From assembly GCA_018660835.1 (NCBI GenBank), contig JABJJN010000080.1, positions 1 to 64,000 of the forward strand: DNA of 64,000 nucleotides. Direction: 5' to 3'. This document shows positions 50,835 through 64,000 of the stretch, in pieces. The position numbers and the translations under genes are program-made. The notes below the pieces were generated by a model, which was not told where the DNA came from, did no database searches, and was given only the letters and a program-made list of their open reading frames with translations. The first letter of the stretch is position 1. Each line of letters starts with the position of its first letter. Origin of the DNA: Gemmatimonadota bacterium (lineage in GTDB: Bacteria; Latescibacterota; UBA2968; UBA8231).

Positions 50835-52568
50835 TCACTCGGCATCACGGCTCTCGGCGACACGTCCCTCACCCTCCATCACGACGACTGTCTGATCGAC
50901 GGTGAGTTCATGAATGCGGTCCACAACTCCACTTGGCCACCGCACCTGCAACAACTCGATGTTCTCTCTAGCTCCCAGACCGAAAGTGACTCGCAAGTCA
51001 TTCTGGCTGTAGAGACCAGATCCCGTCTTGATCTCTCGGAACTGATGCATTCCCTCAGTGCGGATCTCGACCTTTGCGCCAACGCCATCACGATTGCTGG
51101 TCACACCCACAACTCGCACGTGGAGCCAGTGCCCCGCACGATTGGCGCCGTCGTTGCGCAATAAGTCAGCAGCACCGGTCGAATGGACGACAAAGATATC
51201 CACATCACCATCCTCGTCGTAATCACCAAAGGCAGCTCCTCGACTGACCTTCGAGATCGCCAGCCCGGGTCCCATGTCGTCGGTTACGTCATCGAAGGTG
51301 CCATCGTGACGATTGGCGAACAGCTGGTTACGCTGCGGGTAGGTGGCGGACGCATCGAAGAGCTCGATGTTGTCCAACGTATGTCCATTGGCGACGAAAA
51401 TATCAAGGAAGCCATCATTGTTATAGTCGAAAAATGCGGTACTCCAGCCAACGGTGGTCAACGATGCGCCGCCGATGCCGGATCGAGATGATTCGTAGGA
51501 GAACATTCCGTCTCCGTCGTTGCGATAGAGGCTGGTTGGCTCGCCCTGAAAATTTGGCACAACGAGGTCCATGAATCCATCATTGTCATAGTCACCAAAA
51601 TCTGCCCCCATACTGGCTTCTACACGCCCATCACCACTGTAACCGACACCGGCGAGTAAGGCCTCGTCGGTGAAGGTTCCATCACCGCCATTGTGATAGA
51701 GAAAGTTCGCACGCTGATCATTGGCGACGAAGACATCCACAAAGCCGTCTGCATCATAGTCACCACTCACGACACCCATCCCCTTGCCATCGGGGTTGAG
51801 GACGCCCGCCTTTTCGGTGACGTCCACGAAGACTCCATCTCCAACATTGTGGTAGAGGATGTCTGCGGCACCGTCAAAGTTATCCGGACTCGGGTAGGCG
51901 CGCAGGTCCATTCTCGGCGCATCACCGACCGCAGCGACAACATAGGGTGTCAGGTCCTTGCCCGTGTCCTCGAGGGTGTAATCCAGATAGTTGGTGACAT
52001 AGAGGTCGAGGAGCCCATCGTTGTCGAAATCGAGAAACGTGCAACCAGTACCCCATCTTGAGTCGCCGACACCAGCCGCTTCGGTGTGGTCTTGAAAACT
52101 GCCGTCCGCCGAATTGGTATACAGGACGTTCGGACCATAGTTGCTGACATAAAGATCCGCATCTCCGTCATTGTCGTAGTCAGCGGCCGTCACGCCCACG
52201 CCATATCCGCGGTCATCAACCCCCGCAGAGACTGAGACATCGGCAAATGTCCCATTCCCCTTGTTGCGAAAGAGACGATTTGTTTCTTGCGCCTGAGCCC
52301 CTTCTTTCAGGGAGTGTCCATTGGCCGCGTAGATATCGAGTCCACCATCGCCATCGTAGTCCAGGAAAGCACACCCGGGGCCCATGGTCTCGATGAAGAA
52401 CTTTTGCCCCGTGCCACCGTGGGTATAGCGAAAATCGACACCTGCCTCGGCGGCCACATTGACGAAGGTCACTGCACCCCAGACCGGCGACCAGACCGAC
52501 GATGCCATCAAGCAGCACGACACACAGAGCCACACGGTCCAGACTCCTCTGCTCTGCCAGCGTTTCAT
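50835..52568 (-). CDS. Secreted FG-GAP/VCBS beta-propeller with ASPIC/UnbV domain
   Basis: This 577-residue protein has a signal peptide (VWLCVSCCLMASSVWSPVWG). Seven calcium-binding D-x-D-x-D-G-x-x-D motifs (DYDGDGGLD, DYDNDGDAD, DFDNDGLLD, DYDADGFVD, DYDNDGFMD, DYNNDGFLD, DYDEDGDVD) mark a seven-bladed propeller. The C-terminal 100 residues hold the ASPIC/UnbV domain (VRVVGVTSNRDGVGAKVEI, RWPSGVVDRI). Such proteins are extracellular and often bind sugars or partners. GAGGGCGG precedes the ATG at 52568. It is the last gene of the long envelope run. Confidence 0.92.
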   Translation of the reverse strand: MKRWQSRGVWTVWLCVSCCLMASSVWSPVWGAVTFVNVAAEAGVDFRYTHGGTGQKFFIETMGPGCAFLDYDGDGGLDIYAANGHSLKEGAQAQETNRLFRNKGNGTFADVSVSAGVDDRGYGVGVTAADYDNDGDADLYVSNYGPNVLYTNSADGSFQDHTEAAGVGDSRWGTGCTFLDFDNDGLLDLYVTNYLDYTLEDTGKDLTPYVVAAVGDAPRMDLRAYPSPDNFDGAADILYHNVGDGVFVDVTEKAGVLNPDGKGMGVVSGDYDADGFVDVFVANDQRANFLYHNGGDGTFTDEALLAGVGYSGDGRVEASMGADFGDYDNDGFMDLVVPNFQGEPTSLYRNDGDGMFSYESSRSGIGGASLTTVGWSTAFFDYNNDGFLDIFVANGHTLDNIELFDASATYPQRNQLFANRHDGTFDDVTDDMGPGLAISKVSRGAAFGDYDEDGDVDIFVVHSTGAADLLRNDGANRAGHWLHVRVVGVTSNRDGVGAKVEIRTEGMHQFREIKTGSGLYSQNDLRVTFGLGARENIELLQVRWPSGVVDRIHELTVDQTVVVMEGEGRVAESRDAE

Positions 52569-52569
52569 G

Positions 52570-53463
52570 TCACCGCCCTCGTGGCGCACGTAACAGGTCA
52601 TTCTCGCGGATGTCCTGTTCGCCCTCAGTCACTCGGATCTGCGACAGGTGCTCGGCCAGGGGAGCGATGATCTGAATGGCACCTACTATCTGACTATCGA
52701 TGTGGGAACGAACTAGAAAGCGATGCCCCGGCTCCATCTTGTCTGCAATACCCAGATTCACAAAACCCGACCTTCCCTCCAGACTCAGAATCCTCGGTCT
52801 CGCCTTCAAAGCGACCGTTTCATTCAGGATTCGTGTGGCAAGCCCATCCACGATCTGTTGCAGTGATCGATGTGTGGCCTTGCCGATGAGCGTCGCCGAG
52901 AACACGGTGCCACCAAAAGGCACATCGTTGAGTTGCTTATGGACGGCACCCGACTGCGATGGTTTGCCAAGCAGCGTCAGCCCCAGATCGTCGGCAGCTT
53001 CTTCGGCCTTGCCACGGAAAGACTCTACCCTTGTCGCGCCAGGGAAGGTCCGTAGCAGACGTATCTCCAGATCGACGAGAGTTGTGTAGGAGGCATAGCC
53101 TGCGACAAACGGATTTCCCACAGAGAATCGTTTGATGGAGAAGTCGAGGATATTCCCTGTCAGAACGAGATCGGCGCCGAGAGCCTCGCCGATACTACGA
53201 TACTGATCCGTCGTCAGCGGTCCCGCCGTGTCGGTCTTGGATGTGACCGAGTCGAAAGGCACAACGACCAGGTCGAGGGTCTGCTGCAAGGATGCTGCCA
53301 ATTGCTCTGGCAGACCACGACTCAGGTCCCAGGTGCCAGGAAAGTCGCTGTGATTTTCGAAAGGAAGGATGGCGACCCTGTCGCCGCGTTGAATCGCGTG
53401 CACCTGAAGAACCGATAGGAAACAGACAGCTGTCACCAACCTCAGAAGACATCTACGACGCAC
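52570..53463 (-). CDS. CsgG/FlgT-like secreted protein
   Basis: This 297-residue protein has a signal peptide (LLRLVTAVCFLSVLQVHA). Residues about 25-115 look like the N-terminal domain of CsgG/FlgO-type proteins (RVAILPFENHS, GADLVLTGNILDFS). The C-terminal 80 residues resemble the FlgT C-terminal domain (IADKMEPGHRFLVRSHID, VTEGEQDIRENDLLR). Both families are periplasmic or outer-membrane assembly parts. The GTG start at 53463 follows GGAG. It fits a structural or assembly role in the envelope cluster, 1 base before the FG-GAP gene. Confidence 0.75.
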   Translation of the reverse strand: MRRRCLLRLVTAVCFLSVLQVHAIQRGDRVAILPFENHSDFPGTWDLSRGLPEQLAASLQQTLDLVVVPFDSVTSKTDTAGPLTTDQYRSIGEALGADLVLTGNILDFSIKRFSVGNPFVAGYASYTTLVDLEIRLLRTFPGATRVESFRGKAEEAADDLGLTLLGKPSQSGAVHKQLNDVPFGGTVFSATLIGKATHRSLQQIVDGLATRILNETVALKARPRILSLEGRSGFVNLGIADKMEPGHRFLVRSHIDSQIVGAIQIIAPLAEHLSQIRVTEGEQDIRENDLLRAPRGR

Positions 53464-53473
53464 GGGCTCCGGC

Positions 53474-54262
53474 CTACGGCTGTCGGCTGTCGGTGCTTAC
53501 CTGAGTATCTTCCACCGTCCACTTCTCGATGTGACGATCGAAATCAAACTGGCAGTCGATCGCATCGATGACAGCACCGAATTCATCGAACTTGAGAGCG
53601 AACTCTGGCAGCGCAAAGCGGACCTTTTTCACCTCGGAATCAAGGGCATCGAAGGCGATCAGACCGCTATAGTTCTCACCCTTGAAGATGGGCTGGTCCT
53701 CGGCATAACCAAGACTACGCACATGTCCCATCCGCACTTCGAAGCGATAGAACTCGTTGCCACTTTGCCCGCGGATACCACGGTAGTATCTCTCGAAACT
53801 GCTGTGCGGAGAGGTGGATGGAATCCCATATGCGTGTTTTGTCTCACCTTGATCGGTGATGAGAACAACATCAAGCGGATCGAACTCGACTTTCGCATAG
53901 GTCTGATTGAAGACACTGACACGAAAGACGGTGAAGCGATTCGGAACATAGCCGACGTCCCCTTCGATGTCATCGCCATAGGTGTAGGGATTGGTAGAAT
54001 ACTCGCCGCGCCCCGAGTCCTCTGGAAGTAGCGCGTTCAACTCAGCATCGGTCAGGTAATCGACGCTTACCCGCAATCCCTCGGCGACATAGGAAACAGA
54101 ACCGTCCTCGTCGGTGCGATAGGATTCAGTATCCTCCGGGAGCTCAGTGGGCATCATGTAGGAGTTGTAGTGGATCTTCGGAGGGAAAATGATGCAACCC
54201 GCCGCAAACAGACCCATACAGATCGCCGAGGCCCAGTTCACAACTTTCCGCTGAGAGCTCAT
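53474..54262 (-). CDS. Lipoprotein of unknown function
   Basis: This 262-residue protein has a short signal ending in FAAGC, with lipidated Cys at 23. The mature part is acidic and beta-rich, with segments RFTVFRVSVFNQTYAKVEFDP and RFALPEFALKFDEFG. I recognise no family. AAAGGG precedes the ATG at 54262. It lies 32 bases after the giant TPR gene and 10 bases before the CsgG/FlgT-like gene, so it is probably an outer-membrane-attached part of the same system. Confidence 0.75.
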   Translation of the reverse strand: MSSQRKVVNWASAICMGLFAAGCIIFPPKIHYNSYMMPTELPEDTESYRTDEDGSVSYVAEGLRVSVDYLTDAELNALLPEDSGRGEYSTNPYTYGDDIEGDVGYVPNRFTVFRVSVFNQTYAKVEFDPLDVVLITDQGETKHAYGIPSTSPHSSFERYYRGIRGQSGNEFYRFEVRMGHVRSLGYAEDQPIFKGENYSGLIAFDALDSEVKKVRFALPEFALKFDEFGAVIDAIDCQFDFDRHIEKWTVEDTQVSTDSRQP

Positions 54263-54294: not shown

Positions 54295-57200
54295 TCAAAG
54301 TCGAGAGGTCACGATCCAGTCGCGATGACCCTTGGCGAACTGATATGCTTCCTGACTCGCCTCCTGGTTCTCGAACAGCTCGATCACTTTGTCGTATGTC
54401 TGTACCGCATCGGTCCACTGATTGAGGAACTCATAGCAGATGCCGAGATTGCTCAGGGCTCCAACCTGTACCTCCGTGCCCGGATACTTTTCCATCAGAT
54501 CGACGAACAAAGGCACGACCTCACGGAACTTCTCTACCGCTTCCGCCTTGTTGTCGGCTTTCTCAAGACTCAGTCCCTCGCTGAAAATGGCAATCGCCTG
54601 CTCATACTCACCGTAGGCTATGATCTCGCGAACATTCTTCAGCACCTCGGGAACCTCGAGGGCGATCTTCGAATCACCGTGGTCACGCATCACGATCTGG
54701 TATTCTGTCAGAGCCTGCTGATACATCTCCTTGTTGAAGAAGTGATCTCCGAGGGTAAAGCGCGCATCCGGCGCGAATTCACTCTCTGGAAAGGTATCAA
54801 GCAAACGACGCAGACCATGTACGAAGGCCTCTTCATCCTTCGCCTCATAGTAGGCCCAGGCCATGTTATATGTGGCTTCATCACGGATAGGTGCGTCGGG
54901 ATACGCAACGAGCACCTCCTGATAGACATCGATGACCGTGGCGAACTCGCTCAGATTAAAAGCACTCTCCGCGACGCGCATCATGGATTCTGCCGCGACT
55001 TCCGAGTCGGGGAATCTCTGGGCAAGATCGGCGAAGACGTCGCGAGACTTGTCAAACTCGCGCAGGCTGAAGTGAGCATAGCCAAGGTAGTAGAAGCCAT
55101 ACAAGGCATTGGGTGAATCACCGAAACGAGTGACGAAGTCTTCGAGGGTCGCCGCCGCCTCGTCCAGACGATCCATCTGGAAGTAGAGGGTACCCAGCGC
55201 GTAGGCCATATCCGGAGAGTAGAACGAGTCAGGATAGCGTCTAAGCCCCTCACGGTACGCTTCGACGGCGGCCTCATAGTTCTCGGCGCTGTGTTGGCTC
55301 TCGGCAATGAGGAAGTGCACCTGTTCCTGGATCGAATACTCGCTGTCCTTCTTGTCGTCTGCCAGCTCCAGTGCCAGAATCTGGCGCCCCACTGCCACAG
55401 CCTCTTCGTATTGCTCCTGCTCCATGTGGAGTTCAAGAATCAGAACCAGGTAGTCCGCACGCTCAGAGAGATCTGTGGATGCTGCTGCCAACTCGAGATA
55501 GCTCTTCAAGGCCTCCTGCGAATCGTTCAGTCGCAGATAGGCCATACCGAGCATCCTCTGCACGGCGCCGCGGATACGTTCGTTTTCTGAATCTGAAAGG
55601 ATCTTCAGATCCTCCACGGCCTCGACGTATCTCTCCAGACGCGTGTAGCTCGTGCCCCTGTCGTAACGAGCGATCTCCTGAAGCAGCGGATCGGAGGAGA
55701 CTCCGATGGTCTTGGAAAAGGCATCCACTGCAAGCGTGTAGTCTTGCTTGCCCACGTAGGCCTTGCCCGTCAGATACCAGTATTGGGCCCGTTCGCCGTC
55801 GTTCTGAGCGACGTCCATTCCCTGCTGCAACACAGCCAGCGCCTGGTCGTAGTCGGTAAGGCTGACAAAGCCACGGGCAGCTTCCAGCCTTGAAAGTGAA
55901 TACTGTGCGGATCCCTTACGAACTTGCAGCAAATGCCGGGTCGCCTGGGCCAGATCCTTCGCCGTCGCCAGAACCAGCCCGAGTTCGAAATGCGCTACAT
56001 CCAGATGGCTCGAATCCGCCGTGGCTGCGATGATTTCGGCATACGTGGCAGCCGACTCATCATGTTGCCCCAAGCCGAGTTGAATACGGGCAAGCTGGAA
56101 TTGCGAGCTTGTCGCATAGGATCCGTCTGGATCCTCAGCGATGATCTCTCTGAAGCCATCAATGGCTTCGATCTTCGCGTCTCCGCCGATCATCTGCTGG
56201 GAGAGGGCCGCGTTGAAGCGGGTGGCCATGTTGAAAGCCGGGTCAGGATGCTGTTCTAATTGCGTTGAATACGACTGCAATGCCTCGCGGTAGGCGTCTC
56301 GCGATGGTGCAGCGGCTCCCTGTGCTGCCAGGCGTTCTGCTCTGGCGTAGTGAACTTGCCCGATTTCGTACCACGTGTTAGCGAGAGAATAACCGGCTGA
56401 ACTAGCGACCTCAGCGTATGCTTTCAGATAGACATTGTATTCGCGAATCGCATCGTCGAATAGATCTTCTCCCCACTCCTTGCTAGCTTCAGTGTAGCGC
56501 TGCGCCAACTGAAACTGCATGCGCGCTTGAAACGCCTTGCTCGCGGCACTGTCGATGGCTTCTCGGTAGGCGTCCACACACTGGGCCAGCAGGTGGCTCG
56601 AGAAATACATGTCTGCCAGACTCTGGTAGGCCTTTTCCACCAGTCGTCGTTCCTGGGAGAACACCGTCGTGACGATGCGATAGGCATCTTCCGCCTTGTC
56701 GAAATCCCGCAGTTGGCTGTGGCTGTCACCAATTCGGATCTGCGCCTTCGCTGTCAGCTCATACTCGGTTTCATCAACCAAACCAGCGACCTTCTCAAAC
56801 TGCATTCGCTGTACATCCTGCTCCGTCAACTCACCAATGTCAGCTTGGTCTACGAGGGCCTGATAATGCGGGATCGCCTCGGCGTAGCGTTCCTGGTCGT
56901 AGTAACACTCGCCGATCTGAAACAGGGCGCGGCTGACCTGAAAGCCGGACTCGAATCTCTGCGTGAGTTCGGTGAAGGCGAGAATGCTGTTGTCGTAATC
57001 TTTGAGCTCATAGTAAGACCAGCCGATATTGTAGAGAGCTTCCACCACATACGGGTGGTCCGGGTAGCCTTCGACAAACTCCCGGCCCTCACGAATCACT
57101 TCTTCGAAGTGTCGGGCACTGTACCAGCAGGTCATGATGCGACCTTGGGCAAGGACCCGAAGCTCTTCCGATCTGGATTGCTCTGCCACCCGCGAGAAGA

Positions 57201-57579
57201 AACTCACCGCCTGTTCGAGATATTCTTCAGCCTGTGCAAGCCGCCGGGTCTTCTCTTTGGCATCCCTCAGGTTCTGTGCCGCTTGCGACTCTTCCTCGAA
57301 GAGCTTGAAATAGGAGTTGCCCACCTGGTAGGTGGCGGCATCCTTGACGGTCGCCTCGACCTCGCCGACGACGACGATGATATCTCTGTCGTCCAGCAGA
57401 ACACTGGTCACATCACCGACACTCCTGTACTTGTCGATTGCCTGGTCGTAAGCCCCCTCTGAATAGAAACCTTGTCCAGCCTGGAAGGTGGAGAGCATAA
57501 AGTCGCCTGTGGGCACATCCCTGGCGATGAAGGCGACGCTCATCGAGATACTGACGATGGCAATTCCTAGAAATCCCAT
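54295..57579 (-). CDS. Giant tetratricopeptide-repeat protein (1094 residues)
   Basis: A hydrophobic N-terminus (FLGIAIVSISMSVAFIA) acts as signal or anchor. The rest is almost wholly TPR: more than twenty repeats with the W/Y-G-A/Y pattern, for example YDQAIDKYRSVGD, YAEAIPHYQALVDQ, YEAAVEAYREGLRRYPDSF and WTDAVQTYDKVIELF near the end. This makes a long superhelical scaffold on the periplasmic side. Its last repeats resemble YbgF/BamD-type modules. GGAGG lies far upstream of the ATG. In the cluster it would organise the other envelope components. Confidence 0.88.
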   Translation of the reverse strand: MGFLGIAIVSISMSVAFIARDVPTGDFMLSTFQAGQGFYSEGAYDQAIDKYRSVGDVTSVLLDDRDIIVVVGEVEATVKDAATYQVGNSYFKLFEEESQAAQNLRDAKEKTRRLAQAEEYLEQAVSFFSRVAEQSRSEELRVLAQGRIMTCWYSARHFEEVIREGREFVEGYPDHPYVVEALYNIGWSYYELKDYDNSILAFTELTQRFESGFQVSRALFQIGECYYDQERYAEAIPHYQALVDQADIGELTEQDVQRMQFEKVAGLVDETEYELTAKAQIRIGDSHSQLRDFDKAEDAYRIVTTVFSQERRLVEKAYQSLADMYFSSHLLAQCVDAYREAIDSAASKAFQARMQFQLAQRYTEASKEWGEDLFDDAIREYNVYLKAYAEVASSAGYSLANTWYEIGQVHYARAERLAAQGAAAPSRDAYREALQSYSTQLEQHPDPAFNMATRFNAALSQQMIGGDAKIEAIDGFREIIAEDPDGSYATSSQFQLARIQLGLGQHDESAATYAEIIAATADSSHLDVAHFELGLVLATAKDLAQATRHLLQVRKGSAQYSLSRLEAARGFVSLTDYDQALAVLQQGMDVAQNDGERAQYWYLTGKAYVGKQDYTLAVDAFSKTIGVSSDPLLQEIARYDRGTSYTRLERYVEAVEDLKILSDSENERIRGAVQRMLGMAYLRLNDSQEALKSYLELAAASTDLSERADYLVLILELHMEQEQYEEAVAVGRQILALELADDKKDSEYSIQEQVHFLIAESQHSAENYEAAVEAYREGLRRYPDSFYSPDMAYALGTLYFQMDRLDEAAATLEDFVTRFGDSPNALYGFYYLGYAHFSLREFDKSRDVFADLAQRFPDSEVAAESMMRVAESAFNLSEFATVIDVYQEVLVAYPDAPIRDEATYNMAWAYYEAKDEEAFVHGLRRLLDTFPESEFAPDARFTLGDHFFNKEMYQQALTEYQIVMRDHGDSKIALEVPEVLKNVREIIAYGEYEQAIAIFSEGLSLEKADNKAEAVEKFREVVPLFVDLMEKYPGTEVQVGALSNLGICYEFLNQWTDAVQTYDKVIELFENQEASQEAYQFAKGHRDWIVTSRL

Positions 57580-57613: not shown

Positions 57614-58891
57614 TTAGCGGGACTCTGACATCTCGAGAACCGCGGACAACGCCTGCCGGGCGGCCTGAAAACCCGGTCGGATCGACAGGGCCATGCGATA
57701 TGATGCGATCGCCCTGTCGTGCTGCTGGTATTTCTCGTGGATCTGTCCCAACTGCAGATGTGCTTTCGAATCCCGTGGCAGGTAGAGGAGAATCCGTTCG
57801 ATGCTCTCCACCTCCCTGTTGTAGGCACTCATAGATCTGAAGAGTTCCATCTCCCGCGTGGCGGCATCTCTGCTGCCCTGCTTCATAAAGAGACGGGCCA
57901 GATTGTAGTGCGCATCTGCGTATTGTGGATCGATGTCGATGGCGGCCGTGAAGAATTCCTCGGCGTCCTTGAAATTCGCTTGGCCAACAGCGATCAAACC
58001 CAAGCGATAGTGCGCTTCTTTGTGGGCAGAATCGAGGCTCAGAACTCTCTCGTATTGTGCTTTCGCCTGCATCTGTTGACGCAACCCCTCAAGGGCCAGG
58101 CCGAGATGATAATGGACGTCGGGGTTGTCCAACCCGTTGCCAAGTGCCTTGCGGTAGTGGGCGACGGCGGTTTCGTAGTTCCCCTGCTCCTCGAGAGCGA
58201 GTCCAAGATTGTAGTACGCGCGACCCTGACGCGGATTCAGCCTGATCGAGGTCTGAAATTCCGTGACAGCGTCTCCTGTGTTACCCAGGGCGATGTAGGC
58301 CAGGGCAAGATTGTTGTGTGCCTGGTACAAATCGTGGCGCAACTCAATGGCACGCTTGTAGTGCTCGGCCGCCGCCGCGTAGGAGCCAACCTGGGCATAG
58401 AAAGCACCGACATTGAAGCGCATCACCGCCGACGTGGAGTCGATGGTCAGCGCTTTGCGATACGTCGCCTCTGCCTCCCTGAGGCGCCCACCTTCGGCAT
58501 AGACGATCGCCAGATTGTTGTACGTCTCCACTGCACCGCTGTCTAAAGAAATCGCCCGACGTAGATATCTCTCGGCGCGGGGAAAGTCGCCCGCGCCTCG
58601 ATACGCCATGCCGAGGCCATTGTGAGCAAGCACGGATGTCGCGTCGAGCTGGATGGCACGACTGTAGTGGTCTATTGCCTTCATCGTTTGTCCAGCCTGC
58701 AGCAGCGCGTTGCCCTTCTCCACCAAGACCCGGGCCCCGGCTTGTTCTCTGATAGGTACCAGCCAGTATGTATAGATGGCGGCGCCACCGATAAGCAGCA
58801 GGATCGCTGCGGCGATAGCTCCGCGCCTGAGCGTCTTGTACCTTCTAATGGAGTCGTCATTCTTGCCATTTTTTGACCTACTCGGCGACAA
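57614..58891 (-). CDS. Membrane-anchored TPR protein
   Basis: This 425-residue protein has one helix at about 25-45 (GAIAAAILLLIGGAAIYTYWL) after a basic cytoplasmic tail, then about eleven canonical 34-residue TPRs (VLAHNGLGMAYRGAGDFPRA, AYYNLGLALEEQGNYETAV, AHYNLARLFMKQGSRDAA). The TTG start at 58891 overlaps the DUF4340 stop by 14 bases and has GGAG 7 bases upstream. The topology is a periplasmic scaffold tethered to the inner membrane, complementary to the giant TPR protein that follows after 34 bases. Confidence 0.9.
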   Translation of the reverse strand: MSPSRSKNGKNDDSIRRYKTLRRGAIAAAILLLIGGAAIYTYWLVPIREQAGARVLVEKGNALLQAGQTMKAIDHYSRAIQLDATSVLAHNGLGMAYRGAGDFPRAERYLRRAISLDSGAVETYNNLAIVYAEGGRLREAEATYRKALTIDSTSAVMRFNVGAFYAQVGSYAAAAEHYKRAIELRHDLYQAHNNLALAYIALGNTGDAVTEFQTSIRLNPRQGRAYYNLGLALEEQGNYETAVAHYRKALGNGLDNPDVHYHLGLALEGLRQQMQAKAQYERVLSLDSAHKEAHYRLGLIAVGQANFKDAEEFFTAAIDIDPQYADAHYNLARLFMKQGSRDAATREMELFRSMSAYNREVESIERILLYLPRDSKAHLQLGQIHEKYQQHDRAIASYRMALSIRPGFQAARQALSAVLEMSESR

Positions 58892-60200
58892 AAATCCGCT
58901 CCGGCATCAGTCGATCTGCCGTTGCCTTCTCTACCAAGCCGCCAGATTCGACGGCCCCACCTCGTACGTGAACTCTATCACCCTCCACATCCCCAAGGGC
59001 GAGATCGGCTACGTTCGTATCTCCGGCCCAGGCGCGAATGCGTAAGCGTGGCGCTTCGAGGCCGCGAGAATCTTCAACGAAGGCGACTGCCTCCAGCCGC
59101 TCGAGAGCAAGCAAGATCGCTTCGATCTGTGTGCCATCAACAGGCTGAACCGGTGACACAGCAAGCCAGGCATTGTTGTCACGAACGCAGAGGATCGAGC
59201 GGTCGGGATACACAAATTCGATCCGATCTACATTCTTTCGCTGAAAGTCGAGTAGACGCTTGGGACGCAGAGGAAGGTCCGATGTCGGAAGACTCTGTAC
59301 GAAAGAGCTATCCAGACTGAAGACCGATGGGCCTGATGTGCTTTTCGCATAGTGACCCTTTTCGGTCTCATCGCCAATCCACAAGGTGTGTATTGCTTGC
59401 GATCCATCCGCACCCTGTACGTGGACATCGATTTGCATCGTTGGCGAATCGAGTCCGAAGGGTGCGAGACTCGCGGGTGTGTCATCGACGAATGTCATGA
59501 AAGCCGAACCCAGATGTGCAAGCACGGAATCGACCTGTCCACCATCTGCCGGTCCTACCGAAGGCTGCTGTAGACGCCATCCCTCGGCGGCCTTAGCCAC
59601 TTCGATCGTCGACCTCTGCCCGGCGATTCGCCATTCGGTCACGGCGGACTTCGCAAATACCAGAGCCCGTTTTTCCCGCATTTGGCGCAGATTTCTGGCC
59701 ACGCCGGTCCGCCTGTATAGCTCGGTCATACCGACGCGATCCTCAGAAGCCTTCTTCACGTACACGTATACATTGAGCGGGCTGTTGCCGTAGTCGATCG
59801 TATCAAGTACGGCACCCTCGACCTCGACGATGACTCTGACCATCGGGGGTAACAGACCATACTCAGTAAGCCGTTCGGTTTCCTCTCCTTCTTCCAGGAG
59901 CAGGAACTTCTTCAGGTGTGCCCTCTCGAGATTTGCAAGAACACCTTGCACAGAGCCTTCGCTTGCAGGCAAAGCAAGGGGTTCGGTAATACTCCACGTG
60001 CCTTCCTCTTTGCGAAGAACCACCGTCCCAGAGTCTGTTTGGATGGTTAGACCATCCACTTTCTCCTTGTCGAGGACGAGCAACTCCTTCGTCATCTGAA
60101 CGACCTGTTCCTCTTCCTCCTCTTTCTGGTTTGAGTAGAGAACGGCCCCTAAGAGGAGGGCGAATACGATACAAATCTGCAAGACGGACTTCAGGTTCAT
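58878..60200 (-). CDS. DUF4340-domain membrane-anchored protein
   Basis: This 440-residue protein has an N-terminal helix (VLQICIVFALLLGAVLYS) followed by an acidic run. Its periplasmic part holds repeated DUF4340 units (VDGLTIQTDSGTVVLRKEEGTWSI, WRIAGQRSTIEVAKAAEGWRLQQP, VDRIEFVYPDRSILCVRD). In other genomes DUF4340 proteins often accompany GldG-like and ABC gliding/secretion genes. No ABC partner is seen here; ExbB/ExbD genes take that position. It lies 43 bases after the second ExbD. Confidence 0.85.
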   Translation of the reverse strand: MNLKSVLQICIVFALLLGAVLYSNQKEEEEEQVVQMTKELLVLDKEKVDGLTIQTDSGTVVLRKEEGTWSITEPLALPASEGSVQGVLANLERAHLKKFLLLEEGEETERLTEYGLLPPMVRVIVEVEGAVLDTIDYGNSPLNVYVYVKKASEDRVGMTELYRRTGVARNLRQMREKRALVFAKSAVTEWRIAGQRSTIEVAKAAEGWRLQQPSVGPADGGQVDSVLAHLGSAFMTFVDDTPASLAPFGLDSPTMQIDVHVQGADGSQAIHTLWIGDETEKGHYAKSTSGPSVFSLDSSFVQSLPTSDLPLRPKRLLDFQRKNVDRIEFVYPDRSILCVRDNNAWLAVSPVQPVDGTQIEAILLALERLEAVAFVEDSRGLEAPRLRIRAWAGDTNVADLALGDVEGDRVHVRGGAVESGGLVEKATADRLMPERIFVAE

Positions 60201-60243: not shown

Positions 60244-60657
60244 TCACAACTCGATCTCCTTGTTGTCTTCTGTGGCCAGAACCACCTTCTCGATCCCCAT
60301 ACCTTTGGCAACCTCGAGCAAATCAAGCAGGTGGCCATGCTCTGTTGTCTTGTCCGTTCGCACGATCAACGTCAGACTTCTCGTCTGTTGCTTGTGATGC
60401 GACAGGACCTGCTGCAGTTGTGCCTTGGTCACCGGCTCGCGATTGATTTCCATCCTGCCATCGGCAGTGATCGAGCAGACCAGCTTCTTCTCCTTCACCT
60501 GTTGCGCCTGTCGTGCCTCTGGCAACTCGACCTGCAAGCTATAAGGCTGCTTGAATACGGTCGTTACCATGAAAAACACCAACAACAGGAACACACAATC
60601 GATCATCGGTGTAAGGTTGAGATCTTGCTCCTCGTGCTGACTTATCCGTGCCGCCAT
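60244..60657 (-). CDS. ExbD/TolR-family biopolymer transport protein (second copy)
   Basis: This 137-residue protein has a single helix near the N-terminus with the family motif LTPMIDCVFLLLVFFM; Asp20 is the proton-pathway residue. The C-terminal domain is the periplasmic TolR-like fold (LVCSITADGRMEINREPVT, LIVRTDKTTEHG). The ATG at 60657 lies 4 bases after the first exbD stop. Two different ExbD copies following one ExbB would allow a mixed ExbD dimer inside the ExbB pentamer. Confidence 0.93.
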   Translation of the reverse strand: MAARISQHEEQDLNLTPMIDCVFLLLVFFMVTTVFKQPYSLQVELPEARQAQQVKEKKLVCSITADGRMEINREPVTKAQLQQVLSHHKQQTRSLTLIVRTDKTTEHGHLLDLLEVAKGMGIEKVVLATEDNKEIEL

Positions 60658-60661
60658 CGCC

Positions 60662-61078
60662 CTATTCTTCCTGCACGCGCACGAAGGCAATGCCTTGCAC
60701 GCCTACACCCTTGGCCGTGTCCACGACGAATACCACGTGCCGCTGATGACATTTCTCGTCCGCTCGAACAATGATATTCTCATTGTTGGCGGCCTCCATC
60801 GCCGCCGTCAAGCGCTCGCCAAGAGATGACGCATCGACTGCCTCACCGCTAATCTGGATCTCGCCGTCGGCACTCAACACGACATTGATATCCTTCTTCT
60901 GCTCTTCCTCGGCTTCACTCGGTGCGGGTAGATCTACGTCGAGTCCCTTTGCCTGCAGGAACACAGTCGTCACCATGAAGAACACGAGCAATAGAAATAC
61001 GCAATCGATCAACGGCGTAAGATCCGGCTCGGTATCGTCGGCGAAACTCTTACCGTGTTCTTGGCGGTGCCTGGCCAT
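60662..61078 (-). CDS. ExbD/TolR-family biopolymer transport protein (first copy)
   Basis: This 138-residue protein has the membrane motif LTPLIDCVFLLLVFFM with proton-pathway Asp25, and a periplasmic domain (INVVLSADGEIQISGEAVD, IIVRADEKCHQRHV). The acidic linker after the helix (SEAEEEQKKD) differs from the other copy. It starts 13 bases after the exbB gene. With ExbB it forms a proton-driven motor unit. Confidence 0.94.
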   Translation of the reverse strand: MARHRQEHGKSFADDTEPDLTPLIDCVFLLLVFFMVTTVFLQAKGLDVDLPAPSEAEEEQKKDINVVLSADGEIQISGEAVDASSLGERLTAAMEAANNENIIVRADEKCHQRHVVFVVDTAKGVGVQGIAFVRVQEE

Positions 61079-61091
61079 AGTCTGCCCGCCC

Positions 61092-61826
61092 TCAGGCGCT
61101 GGGTTCGTTCCGCGTGGACATGATCAAGGTATTGGCGAAGGCATGACCGTAGACCTCAACTTGCTTCAGCGACCTGTCTGCCCAACGAGCGAGAAACCGA
61201 TAGATGACAATCGAGGGTATGGCGACGATCAGACCCGAGGCTGTCGTAACGAGCGCCTGCGAGATACCGCCAGCAACGACTCTTGGATCACCCGCCCCGG
61301 CAACGGCGATCGACTCAAAGGCGATGATCATACCCATGATCGTACCTAACAGACCGAGCAAGGGGCTGATGTTCCCAATCGTAAACAGCACGACCAGGTT
61401 CTTACCCAGATACTCGCGTGCTGACTCTTCCGTCTCGACAACCAGCTCCGTCTTCAGGTCTTCAAGTTCGCGCAGCATCACCATGCACCGGCCCATGTCT
61501 CCACCACCGGCACTCTCGGCGAGATCGACAATCTCCTGGTGCGTCGCCTGGAACTCGCGTTGTTCAATCATCAGCGTTGTGTGCCGCTTTAACAGAGCGG
61601 AAAACACGTAGTTGAGGACCCCCTTGCCTTGGCTGCACTGTTCAACCGCTGCTTCCGGACTGCGTTCGAGGGCCGCCTCCAGCTCATCGAGCTGGGCCTT
61701 GGCCTGATCGGACTCGGGCATGAGTCTGAGTACCCAGATTCTCTCGATCGTATAGGCGAGACCCATGATCGCGCAGATGGTAAGAGGCACCATCATCGGA
61801 CCGCCGCTTTGTATAATTTCCCACAT
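61092..61826 (-). CDS. ExbB/TolQ/MotA-family proton channel protein
   Basis: This 244-residue protein has three helices: an N-terminal one (MMVPLTICAIMGLAYTIERI), then two C-terminal ones (ISPLLGLLGTIMGMIIAF and ALVTTASGLIVAIPSIVIY). The conserved P-L-L-G-L-L-G-T motif and the T-T-A-x-G-L-x-V-A-I-P motif are intact. It makes the pentameric channel around the ExbD helices. AAGGAG is 8 bases before the ATG at 61826 but can be masked by a hairpin. It follows the DUF4159 gene by 54 bases. Confidence 0.95.
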   Translation of the reverse strand: MWEIIQSGGPMMVPLTICAIMGLAYTIERIWVLRLMPESDQAKAQLDELEAALERSPEAAVEQCSQGKGVLNYVFSALLKRHTTLMIEQREFQATHQEIVDLAESAGGGDMGRCMVMLRELEDLKTELVVETEESAREYLGKNLVVLFTIGNISPLLGLLGTIMGMIIAFESIAVAGAGDPRVVAGGISQALVTTASGLIVAIPSIVIYRFLARWADRSLKQVEVYGHAFANTLIMSTRNEPSA

Positions 61827-61834
61827 CTCGACTG

Positions 61835-61854
61835 CTCCTTGTTACCTACAGGAG
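61835..61854 (-). promoter_or_regulatory. Hairpin that may mask the exbB ribosome site
   Basis: On the minus strand, CTCCT (61854-61850) can pair with AGGAG (61839-61835), the core of the exbB Shine-Dalgarno site, leaving a 10-base loop. A five-pair stem is short, so the effect is uncertain. It would make ExbB level depend on translation from the gene upstream. Confidence 0.25.
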
Positions 61855-61880
61855 GTGATTGGTCGAATCTCTTGCTGGTA

Positions 61881-63143
61881 CTACTCAGTTAGTTCTGTAT
61901 AGAAATCGATTTGCTGCTGTGCGATGGAACCTTCTTGTGTCAAAGCGAAGACGACGAGATTTACACCCATTCGTAGTTGCGGCTCGTTCTCGAATTCGTC
62001 CTGCCAGATACTTCCGTAGCCCATATCAGAGTACACCGCTACCAAGCGCCCATCGACGAAGACACCTTCAAGAAAACCGACTTCGTCGGGCTGGTAGTAG
62101 ACATCGGTCGATTCGTTGGAGTTCAGATAGAAGATGTCCGGGTTGCCACGAACACTCAGATATTCTCCCCCGACGGGCGGACCGTCCAGGTCAAAGAAAC
62201 TGTGGTAGATGGCATGGCTATTCTGGATCCGTGTCAGCTTGCCTTCACGGCCAAGAGCTTGACCAAACATTGATCTGAGTGAGGCCTCGGCGGGCCCGAA
62301 ATTCAGATCCGGACGGTCATTGTCGGCAAACACGAAGCCACCACTGCGCATGTATTGCCCCAGACTTTCGATCTCCTTGTCTGTGAGCTCGAAGCCGTCC
62401 TGGTCGGTGATATAGACAAAGGGGGTCTTGAACAATTCAGGTGAATCGAGGAACATGTGATCCGCGACCTTCGCCTGAATTCCCGTATAGGTGTTGATCC
62501 CTTCTGCCAGCTTGGACACAGAGCGCGGTGCATCGGGCTGCAGGTCATTGCCCCATGCCAGGGCCAGATAGACGAACCCACGGATATTCGTGCGGTCGTT
62601 GGGGTCCTGAATGACCATGCCGCGATACTTCCCCGTATCCAGGGCGCTCAGATCCAGGAATTCCTCCTGCATGCTGATCCGATTCTCCGGGTCCTTCGAA
62701 CTGCGGATCTGCATAGCCGCCACCTGCGGCGTAACCGTTCCAGCGCCAACACTTGCCCCCACATCGATCTGGTGCGCAAAGGTGGCAACTCCACCCAGTG
62801 CGTCGGCACGACGAATCGAGCGGGGCGGTGTGCGCGCAATCTTCGGCCTCGCCGTCGTCAGCCGTCTCGTCATCTGCCGCTTCTGCACCTGCGTCTTGCG
62901 CATGCGGAATGGCTTCTTGGCTTGCGGTTTCTGAATGATGAATTCCATCGCCATTGGCTTGGGTGCCGGCCCCTCATCCTCCAATGCCATAAAATAGCCG
63001 AAGGCAGACGCAACGATCCCCACAGCCAAGCCGTAGGCGAAATACGAAACCCGCCGCGTCTCTCGGAACAGTCGCCCAAGCTCCAGCGCATCTGTCGGAG
63101 CCTCAAAACGTCCGTGATTGGGTTCGGTCATCTGTCTCGCCAT
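61881..63143 (-). CDS. DUF4159 protein with TonB-like membrane anchor
   Basis: This 420-residue protein has a cytoplasmic tail, one helix at about 32-53 (VSYFAYGLAVGIVASAFGYF), a Pro/Lys/Arg-rich linker at 59-110 (PAPKPMAMEFIIQKPQ, KPFRMRKTQVQK) and then a DUF4159 domain (about 185-415; WGNDLQPDAPRSVSKLAEG, FVYITDQDGFELTDKE, YMRSGGFVFADND). The front half mirrors TonB, but the usual TonB C-terminal domain is replaced by DUF4159, a predicted glutamine-amidotransferase-like fold. DUF4159 has no known reaction. It lies directly upstream of exbB and two exbD genes, so it is the likely motor-coupled effector. Confidence 0.85.
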   Translation of the reverse strand: MARQMTEPNHGRFEAPTDALELGRLFRETRRVSYFAYGLAVGIVASAFGYFMALEDEGPAPKPMAMEFIIQKPQAKKPFRMRKTQVQKRQMTRRLTTARPKIARTPPRSIRRADALGGVATFAHQIDVGASVGAGTVTPQVAAMQIRSSKDPENRISMQEEFLDLSALDTGKYRGMVIQDPNDRTNIRGFVYLALAWGNDLQPDAPRSVSKLAEGINTYTGIQAKVADHMFLDSPELFKTPFVYITDQDGFELTDKEIESLGQYMRSGGFVFADNDRPDLNFGPAEASLRSMFGQALGREGKLTRIQNSHAIYHSFFDLDGPPVGGEYLSVRGNPDIFYLNSNESTDVYYQPDEVGFLEGVFVDGRLVAVYSDMGYGSIWQDEFENEPQLRMGVNLVVFALTQEGSIAQQQIDFYTELTE

Positions 63144-63171: not shown

Positions 63172-63573
63172 TCACTGTGGGATAAAGACGGTGTCGAGGT
63201 TAGAACTCTCACTCACGAAATCAGTGGCATCCACGGCTTCGACACGAAATGTGTAGAAAGAGTCGGTCCATGTGAACTCCACTGTATCAGTCTGCGTCGC
63301 AGACGGGGCCGTGAATTTCCACTCAGCCCCAGTGCTCCCTTCAGCAACTGTGACGATATAGTACAGGATCTGTGCCGATGCGCTGATCGTCCACTGCAGC
63401 ACGACCCGCTCCTCTTCGTACGTTGCGCTCAGAGCCTGTGGGCTCTCCACACGGTCCTCGTGAAATTTCGCCGGTAGACTGTGTTGGTCTCCACATGAGG
63501 TCCCCAGCAATGCCAAGGTGACCAACAGAAGCCACATGGTTCGGCCATTCAACTGTATTTGCGTGAAGCTCAA
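63172..63573 (-). CDS. Small lipoprotein with a fibronectin-III-like domain
   Basis: This 133-residue protein has a TTG start at 63573 that overlaps the upstream TGA as TTGA. It supplies a positively charged n-region (GRTM) before the hydrophobic core WLLLVTLALLGTSC; ATG 63537 is the alternative but gives an uncharged signal. The lipobox is LGTSC. The remainder forms one fibronectin-III-like sandwich (ERVVLQWTISASAQILYY, FTWTDSFYTFRVEAVDA). It precedes the DUF4159 gene by 28 bases and may be its outer-membrane partner. Confidence 0.75.
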   Translation of the reverse strand: MSFTQIQLNGRTMWLLLVTLALLGTSCGDQHSLPAKFHEDRVESPQALSATYEEERVVLQWTISASAQILYYIVTVAEGSTGAEWKFTAPSATQTDTVEFTWTDSFYTFRVEAVDATDFVSESSNLDTVFIPQ

Positions 63574-64000
63574 AATCTGCTCGCAATCACAAGCCGTGCG
63601 GGGGCACCCTGCATGGCGGGCAGTGCGCGAAGACGCCAGCCAGCGGCGGCGGTCGTTTTTGGGCCATCGAACAACAGAATATCCGCAAGACTGTAGGCAT
63701 AGATGCCGAGGGCGGCGGCGGTGAACACCCGTCTCGTCAAACCAAGACGATCCAAGCTTTCGGCGTCTTTTTGAAGTTGCTGCCATCTCGCGTCTGCCGC
63801 GTCGAACTGACTATCTCCAGCAGCCATCTCCTCATACTCCGACTTCTGCCGCCTGAAGTTGTCGAGACGCGTTCTGTAGTTCTCGTTCGCAGTCAGAGCC
63901 GTAGCCAGGGAACTGAGTTCAGCAAGCACGAGAATCGACCCCGTCATCTTCCGCCCCTTCGACAGTTGGCCCATCCCGGGGAACAAGGCGGATAGGAGAA
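63570..64000 (-). CDS. Membrane protein with PGxGQ motif (5' end outside window)
   Basis: The frame is open to the right edge, so the start is missing; about 143 residues are visible. The stretch SALFPGMGQLSKGRKMTG is the signature seen in DUF5683-type integral membrane proteins (small amphipathic motif P-G-x-G-Q-x-x-x-G). A helix follows (SILVLAELSSLATAL), then a charged coiled segment, then a second helix (RVFTAAALGIYAYSLADILLF). Its stop overlaps the FN3 lipoprotein start. It is the first visible gene of the envelope cluster. Confidence 0.7.
   Translation of the reverse strand, partial: LLSALFPGMGQLSKGRKMTGSILVLAELSSLATALTANENYRTRLDNFRRQKSEYEEMAAGDSQFDAADARWQQLQKDAESLDRLGLTRRVFTAAALGIYAYSLADILLFDGPKTTAAAGWRLRALPAMQGAPARLVIASRF

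Follow-up and report, generated by a model that had tools for sequence, protein, structure and literature searches.

A candidate force transducer with a DUF4159 head beside an ExbB-ExbD-ExbD motor in Latescibacterota

What does an ExbB-ExbD motor drive when the protein encoded beside it carries a DUF4159 domain in place of the TonB domain? The question is raised by a stretch of 64,000 nucleotides (positions 1 to 64,000 of contig JABJJN010000080.1, GenBank assembly GCA_018660835.1), hereafter the window, from a Gemmatimonadota bacterium that GTDB places in Latescibacterota, a lineage for which we know of no cultured model. On the minus strand, the gene for a 420-amino-acid (aa) DUF4159 protein, the candidate force transducer (61881..63143), is followed by genes for an ExbB/TolQ-like motor subunit of 244 aa (61092..61826) and two ExbD/TolR-like subunits (60662..61078 and 60244..60690). 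A sequence-only reading of these four genes had taken the DUF4159 protein to be TonB-like and its head to be the force-receiving or enzymatic end of a new motor-driven machine. On the evidence below, which is all computational, we lean towards the view that the window encodes a trans-envelope machine of the Ton/Tol/Agl class, driven by the proton-motive force (PMF), in which the DUF4159 protein would act as a TonB-like transducer with a non-TonB head.

Layout, motor subunits and linkage of the DUF4159 protein

Open reading frames (ORFs), Pfam matches and an AlphaFold2 model confirmed the arrangement first read from the letters: one transmembrane helix, a basic Pro-rich linker and a DUF4159 domain, encoded directly upstream of exbB-exbD-exbD, with the DUF4159 gene ending 54 bp before exbB. 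The protein consists of an N-terminal segment, the transmembrane helix (about residues 22-53), the linker (about 55-165) and DUF4159 (about 170-403; PF13709 at 97.7 bits over residues 191-401, cut-off 25.9). The model has a single helix at 22-53, low-confidence coil to about residue 165 with a short helix near 152-162, and then a confident alpha/beta domain except for a poor loop at 327-349. Residues 55-115 contain 13% Pro, 11.5% Lys and 16.4% Arg and carry a net charge of +12. No TonB C-terminal domain (PF03544 or PF13103) was found on this protein, for which hmmscan yielded DUF4159 alone at E ≤ 0.1.

The motor subunits retain Thr and Asp residues known from motors of this class. ExbB matches PF01618 (98.3 bits) and the first ExbD matches PF02472 (100.9 bits), both above cut-off; the second ExbD matches PF02472 at 113.5 bits, likewise above cut-off, and an ATG at 60657 is a likelier start for it than the listed TTG. 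(The preferred starts of this gene, and of the giant repeat protein and both lipoproteins described below, were read from the sequence by eye.) As originally claimed, both ExbDs keep the proton-path Asp, with D25 of subunit 1 and D31 of subunit 2 aligning with D25 of E. coli ExbD. ExbB T162 and T195 appear to fall on the essential Thr148 and Thr181, judging from an equal-length span match to 5sv0_B; the alignment shown is to Serratia ExbB, and the essential residues carry E. coli numbering (excerpts of PMC12905483). Over distinct DUF4159-linked sequences, the ExbB threonines are present in 34/34 readable and 35/35 cases and the ExbD Asp in 48/50. Asn replaces this Asp in one ExbD of the pair at L113:6401, at L199:4414, where the gene reads as an ExbB-ExbD fusion, and in the second ExbD of L238, L240 and L243.

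DUF4159-linked ExbBs also form a group of their own. In a tree that omits L128, L129, L206, L207, L210 and ExbB frames shorter than 190 aa, 31 DUF4159-linked and 11 TonB-linked ExbBs lie on opposite sides of one branch (support of 99 in the Shimodaira-Hasegawa-like approximate likelihood ratio test). The source genome also encodes an ordinary TonB, which is separate and has an ExbB-ExbD-ExbD motor of its own. Pairwise distances of DUF4159 and ExbB are correlated (r 0.82; highest of 2000 permutations 0.23), as co-inherited partners would be, but vertical inheritance alone could produce such a correlation. We also tried a co-variation between a Ser in ExbB and a polar residue in the anchor, which was concordant in 28/30 pairs (L122 was left out, its docking residue being unreadable). 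It was dropped as support because the set holds one independent pair and the Ser was not seen in 11 genuine TonB-ExbB pairs read by eye (6 with the docking His, 5 without).

Linkage was measured in ten genomes that we picked out of 60. There, 21/85 DUF4159 matches lie within 4 kb (start to start) of an ExbB-family match, where uniform placement would give 0.91, and no genome is without such a match. The commonest linked form is ExbB-ExbD-DUF4159, preceded, where read, by a large gene of tetratricopeptide repeat (TPR) type; the same ExbB-ExbD-DUF4159 order occurs in three Neomarinimicrobiota loci. The expected link to exbBD thus exists far beyond chance, but many DUF4159 homologues have no anchor or no linkage, which the sequence-only reading had itself named as grounds for refutation. 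The source genome alone has nine DUF4159 matches. In Neomarinimicrobiota, 84/100 genomes have matches, of which just three extend into the anchor part of the model. The scan of named genomes covered the best 80 of 319 relatives, the nearest being metagenome-assembled genomes labelled Gemmatimonadetes (L048, 95%), Latescibacterota (L049, 87%) and others; distant phyla are therefore thinly covered, and there may be anchored forms outside the lineages listed here.

For counts of anchored proteins, 14/141 matches outside 340-520 aa were excluded and identical proteins merged, which took 127 listed proteins to 112 distinct ones. Of these, 104 fall in clades delimited by eye on a rapidly built tree, 38/118 of whose inner branches are open; a 1493-aa frame (L111) was removed from the alignment. 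ExbB lies within 4 kb on the same strand in 34 of the 112 and within 6 kb on either strand in 40. For the 60 whose flanks extend 4 kb or more each way, the numbers are 20 and 25. In one clade (C), exbB-exbD-exbD stands on the opposite strand, 3-5 kb off.

The anchors resemble the N terminus of TonB at the level of the family. A hidden Markov model (HMM) built from 15 Latescibacterota TonB N-termini scored 67 anchors at a median of 7.3 bits, whereas none of 40 column-permuted HMMs exceeded 2.7. At the position of the docking His of TonB, the alignment has His in 57/104 anchors read, Glu or Asn in some clades, and an apolar residue in the clades of the window and of L010. Just past the membrane, most rows read have a short hydrophobic strand and then a Pro at about the distance of the TonB motor box. 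The window has MAMEFIIQKP at this place, to which the AlphaFold2 model assigns no structure; over 47 sequences, Pro73 and Lys77 reach a conservation of 90% or more. Related layouts occur elsewhere. L012:4952-6292 and similar 446-aa proteins (L191, L197 and L224) are core-type transducers with Glu at the position of the His, and the L012 protein has extra hydrophobic stretches before this anchor. The 585-aa protein at L017:8144-9901 combines a TonB-like SLLLH transmembrane segment with a diverged DUF4159, and no ExbB match was found in the 18 kb examined there.

Docking, missing motors and alternative roles

Several observations weigh against a transducer that docks on the neighbouring motor. 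In the window copy the docking position is Val, so that the Ser-3X-His-6X-Leu-3X-Ser motif is absent, and the TonB N-terminal HMM gives it -0.3 bits, a score equalled or exceeded by 129/333 other transmembrane segments (reduced from 334 by taking out one control, L095_7435, an apparent N-terminus of a genuine TonB, after its score of 71 bits was seen). The area under the curve for ranking anchors is 0.92, within the range of the column-permuted models (mean 0.87, standard deviation 0.04, maximum 0.95); the ranking alone therefore reflects composition, and only the level of the scores exceeds the permuted models. Unlinked anchors, which might use the general Ton motor, reach a median of 9.1 (n=51), but those linked to ExbB just 1.2 (n=16). 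Motor and DUF4159 also occur apart. No ExbB lies within 6 kb of 72/112 anchored proteins in the DNA examined. In four of the eight loci of the window clade (L051-L054), exbBDD is absent and the rest of the cassette is kept; its place is taken by a reverse-strand gene of 707-719 aa, joined in L053 by one further gene. The L052 gene, the sole one scanned with Pfam, has a PF01841 transglutaminase core, and the other three are 90-95% identical to it. Conversely, L238, L240 and L243 have cassettes of TPR (named by eye), ExbB, ExbD, ExbD and a lipoprotein of the family that we call LP, with no DUF4159 in the 11-12 kb examined. The proposal of a TonB-like protein finds support for the family, in its topology and its linkage, and is weak for the window copy.

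These observations can be read to mean that the DUF4159 protein, tethered to the membrane, serves the motor or a lipoprotein/TPR complex as a scaffold or gate, with no transmission of force by the protein itself and with the work of the motor reaching the cell wall through ExbD or going to another transducer. The cassettes without a DUF4159 neighbour, the missing His of the window anchor and the retention of DUF4159 in L051-L054 all favour such a role. The TonB-like topology, the motor-box-like strand and the docking His of many relatives argue against it, and a transmembrane helix with a long basic linker seems more than a tether would need. Moreover, because 5/11 genuine TonBs encoded beside ExbB in the same phylum or genomes also lack the docking His, its absence from the window anchor is compatible with docking. 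We consider a scaffold or gate unlikely, although it deserves serious attention.

A second alternative is that anchored DUF4159 proteins serve a lipoprotein or outer-membrane system independently of ExbBD, the motor genes being a convenient neighbour in one subset. The 72 anchored proteins without ExbB within 6 kb (35/60 among those with flanks of 4 kb or more each way) and the four motorless loci of the window clade point this way. The excess of linkage over chance and the separation of DUF4159-linked ExbBs from Ton ExbBs speak against it, and the motor might not need to be adjacent: further PF01618 matches that could serve in trans are present in all ten genomes, and in one genome with a DUF4159-free cassette an orphan exbB-exbD-exbD set, its ExbB sharing 89% identity with the L060 one, stands some 20 kb away from a DUF4159 paralogue (L237), which makes such service possible. 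We therefore find independence from ExbBD improbable, and we retain the view of the DUF4159 protein as a transducer.

The DUF4159 head

Pfam lists DUF4159 as a domain of unknown function, and in an open-licence library of PMC papers neither the name DUF4159 nor Hoch_4089 returned any paper; combined searches there listed none whose title or opening of the abstract dealt with the domain. In Foldseek, the best solved match of the head is 4i66 (Hoch_4089, E 1.7e-13), followed by flavodoxins, WrbA and ThuA-like proteins at E near 1e-3. A viral structure library gave no match at E ≤ 0.001. We compared the anchored proteins with domain-only relatives, namely 27 from Neomarinimicrobiota and L009 of the source genome, which have 36 polar positions in common at 90% or more. 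The domain-only proteins keep 33-36 of these sites each, partly because this same set served to define them, whereas 47 anchored proteins retain 5-11 and the window copy 9. Anchored forms have thus lost most of the polar sites conserved in domain-only DUF4159s. The residues at His248, Lys324, His326, His328, Glu374, Asp375 and Asp378 are matched in 0/47 anchored rows, the alignment being less sure in the gappy loop 324-331; His310, Arg366 and Asn395 are present in both forms. Much of the polar signature is likewise missing from 4i66 when it is aligned to L009.

In the domain-only proteins (L009:8041-8736 and L131-L157) this signature comprises GHGN, FLHADDNYG, KIHEHDGK and ETDLGDGWE. It looks like a metal or active site, and these proteins may be enzymes; genes for a MoxR-type AAA protein and a DUF58 protein lie near L009. 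For the anchored forms, retention of only 5-11 of the 36 sites makes a binding or force domain likelier than an enzyme. That the anchored head is a motor-driven or tethered enzyme acting on cell-wall or polymer substrates is very improbable given this loss, even though its fold neighbours include ThuA-like and glutamine-amidotransferase proteins, its domain-only relatives have a conserved His/Asp/Glu set, and three of the polar residues persist in both forms. Of the two ends first proposed for the machine, the enzymatic one is therefore disfavoured.

Neighbouring genes, a proposed mechanism and known systems

The gene cluster extends over about twice the length first described, and it is likely that the operon, as read from gene spacing, continues both ways along the minus strand with short gaps. 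Upstream lie a small lipoprotein gene (63172..63537, with the start placed at the Met preceding the lipobox; the listed ORF begins at 63786), whose product has an Fn3-like look, a sequence impression, and gave nothing above cut-off in a Pfam scan, and a gene for a DUF5683-like small protein (63570..63998) that runs off the end of the window and scores 16.9 bits, under the cut-off of 26.7. Downstream of the motor are genes for a DUF4340 protein of 440 aa (58878..60200, PF14238 at 124.1 bits); a TPR protein of 425 aa (57614..58891), recognized by Pfam and matching NCBIfam GltE at 74.7 bits, under the cut-off of 225; and a giant TPR protein of about 1094 aa (54295..57579, start inferred; ORF listed from 57828), which matches TIGR02795 at 207.9 bits over six stretches (cut-off 90.1) and has several YbgF/CpoB-like and BamD-like TPR stretches. 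Next comes a short LP lipoprotein (53474..54262, its start chosen in the same way; the listed ORF begins at 54418), which matches the LP HMM at E 1.8e-103, has no NCBIfam match at E ≤ 0.01 and lacks the TonB-like C-terminal domain. Ten bp after it begins the gene for a 297-aa protein (52570..53463) to which no family could be assigned in Pfam or NCBIfam scans; its homologue is the gene before ExbB in L060 (28% identity over 266 aa). An FG-GAP/UnbV_ASPIC protein (window 50835-52601) lies at the downstream end of the cassette.

Several of these genes recur. We grouped genes lying within 7 kb on the same strand by single-linkage clustering and then counted each family again over the 104 distinct transducers, which fall in 13 clades drawn by hand. 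A cluster of TPR type (369 to >1090 aa) lies near 61/104 transducers and in 13/13 clades, ExbB near 34 (8 clades), LP near 27 (7 clades), a secreted-protein family, mostly of 900-1070 aa, near 26 (7 clades), the small lipoprotein family near 13 (4 clades, upstream) and the DUF5683-like family near 12 (4 clades). From their sequence, the secreted proteins are read as probable outer-membrane barrels; Pfam gave one sub-threshold barrel match among three of them. Upstream of the window cassette is a tandem array of genes for three large secreted proteins of 902-1057 aa (L011:4139-12858), at least two of which belong to the family that recurs with transducers. Two secreted proteins that are also encoded upstream of it (L011:12938-17202) have type IX-like sorting domains, above cut-off in one and below in the other, and the source genome has a match to SprA_N of the type IX translocon above cut-off (G000:C15:22406-23713).

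The LP gene stands directly downstream in six clades and also belongs to the window cassette. Of the 112 distinct anchored proteins, 46 have LP in their loci; this is a minimum, given how short the loci are and that the locus of the window is left out of the count. The family is large, with 1 to 17 matches per genome in eight Latescibacterota genomes, many of them away from DUF4159. In at least four clades LP bears a TonB-type C-terminal domain. The AgmX/PglI C-terminal model NF033768 was above its cut-off of 40 in 4/4 long Latescibacterota forms tested (66.5, 60.7, 53.9 and 43.7 bits), and among ten LPs (nine long, one short) two reached the PF03544 cut-off of 24.6, four were below it and four had no match; the Neomarinimicrobiota LP matched TonB models sub-threshold only. 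An AlphaFold2 model of the L079 LP (mean predicted local distance difference test score 80.5) returned nothing from Foldseek at E ≤ 0.001; the best match was YjhA (3cfu, 0.002), and the top matches include the TonB C-terminal domains 6fip, 6sly, 1u07 and 2gsk at E 0.016 to 0.09.

In the machine that we favour, ExbB, presumably in five copies, and the ExbD pair would form the inner-membrane motor, on which the transmembrane helix of the DUF4159 protein, predicted to have its N terminus inside, would dock. The short hydrophobic strand just past the membrane would meet the periplasmic domains of ExbD, and the basic Pro-rich linker would take the head into the periplasm. There the head, with its predicted flavodoxin/ThuA-like fold and most polar sites lost, could act as a grip on the products of nearby genes: LP, the TPR proteins and the large secreted proteins, which probably sit in the outer membrane. 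The proton gradient would thereby do work at the outer membrane. A more specific arrangement, in our estimate unlikely, is a split Ton-type machine: the DUF4159 grip would replace the TonB domain on the motor-docked protein, and the TonB/AgmX-type domain would have moved to the adjacent lipoprotein. Force would then pass from the motor through the DUF4159 arm and the TonB-headed lipoprotein to an outer-membrane protein, with several such transducers per Latescibacterota genome on dedicated and shared motors.

If the DUF4159 protein is a transducer, its head would be the second non-TonB head among the few proposed PMF-driven transducers, the anchored branch of an uncharacterised family would gain its first role, with LP as the likely partner, and Latescibacterota would have a trans-envelope machine. 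Which parts of TonB docking needs would also become testable, because several clades lack the His yet keep the motor.

How does this system compare with known ones? With TonB-ExbB-ExbD the window has in common the topology, the motor subunits and perhaps a motor-box-like strand, but its DUF4159 protein has no TonB domain and its ExbB belongs to a distinct group; lacking also the His of the SHLS motif in the window copy, the protein is not a TonB. For Tol-Pal, general scans of the window proteins gave no TolB or Pal match, the genome not having been searched for them. Domain-only DUF4159s such as L009, with 4i66 (Hoch_4089) as the closest solved structure, have the same Pfam domain but no long anchor or linker, keep the polar sites and, in L009, stand near MoxR and DUF58 genes. 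The vWA (von Willebrand factor A)-headed transducers of Williams-Jones et al. 2025 (PMC12204202, in excerpts) come closer. They have a transmembrane helix, a disordered Pro-rich linker and a non-TonB head, are proposed to be PMF-driven, and are encoded beside a TPR gene, one tolQ-like gene and two different tolR-like genes, all of which have counterparts in the window. The head is vWA there and DUF4159 here, and the SHLS motif, including the His that is missing from the window copy, is retained by many vWA transducers. The main text of that paper does not contain the words DUF, BatA or glutamine amidotransferase. The novelty first claimed for the machine is accordingly narrowed, since vWA-headed transducers beside TPR-tolQ-tolR-tolR were already published. 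The Agl-Glt system of Myxococcus xanthus, as described in parts of PMC3169522 and PMC5349195, likewise combines one TolQ-like and two TolR-like subunits (AglR, AglQ, AglS) with large TPR proteins (GltD, 1191 aa; GltE, 471 aa), outer-membrane proteins and a TonB-type transducer, GltG. The motor composition and the large TPR proteins are common to both systems, whereas the TonB-type C-terminal domain sits on GltG/GltJ there; here DUF4159 is on the transducer, and LP has an AgmX/PglI-type domain in some clades. Because its head is DUF4159, the window system belongs with neither the vWA transducers nor Agl-Glt.

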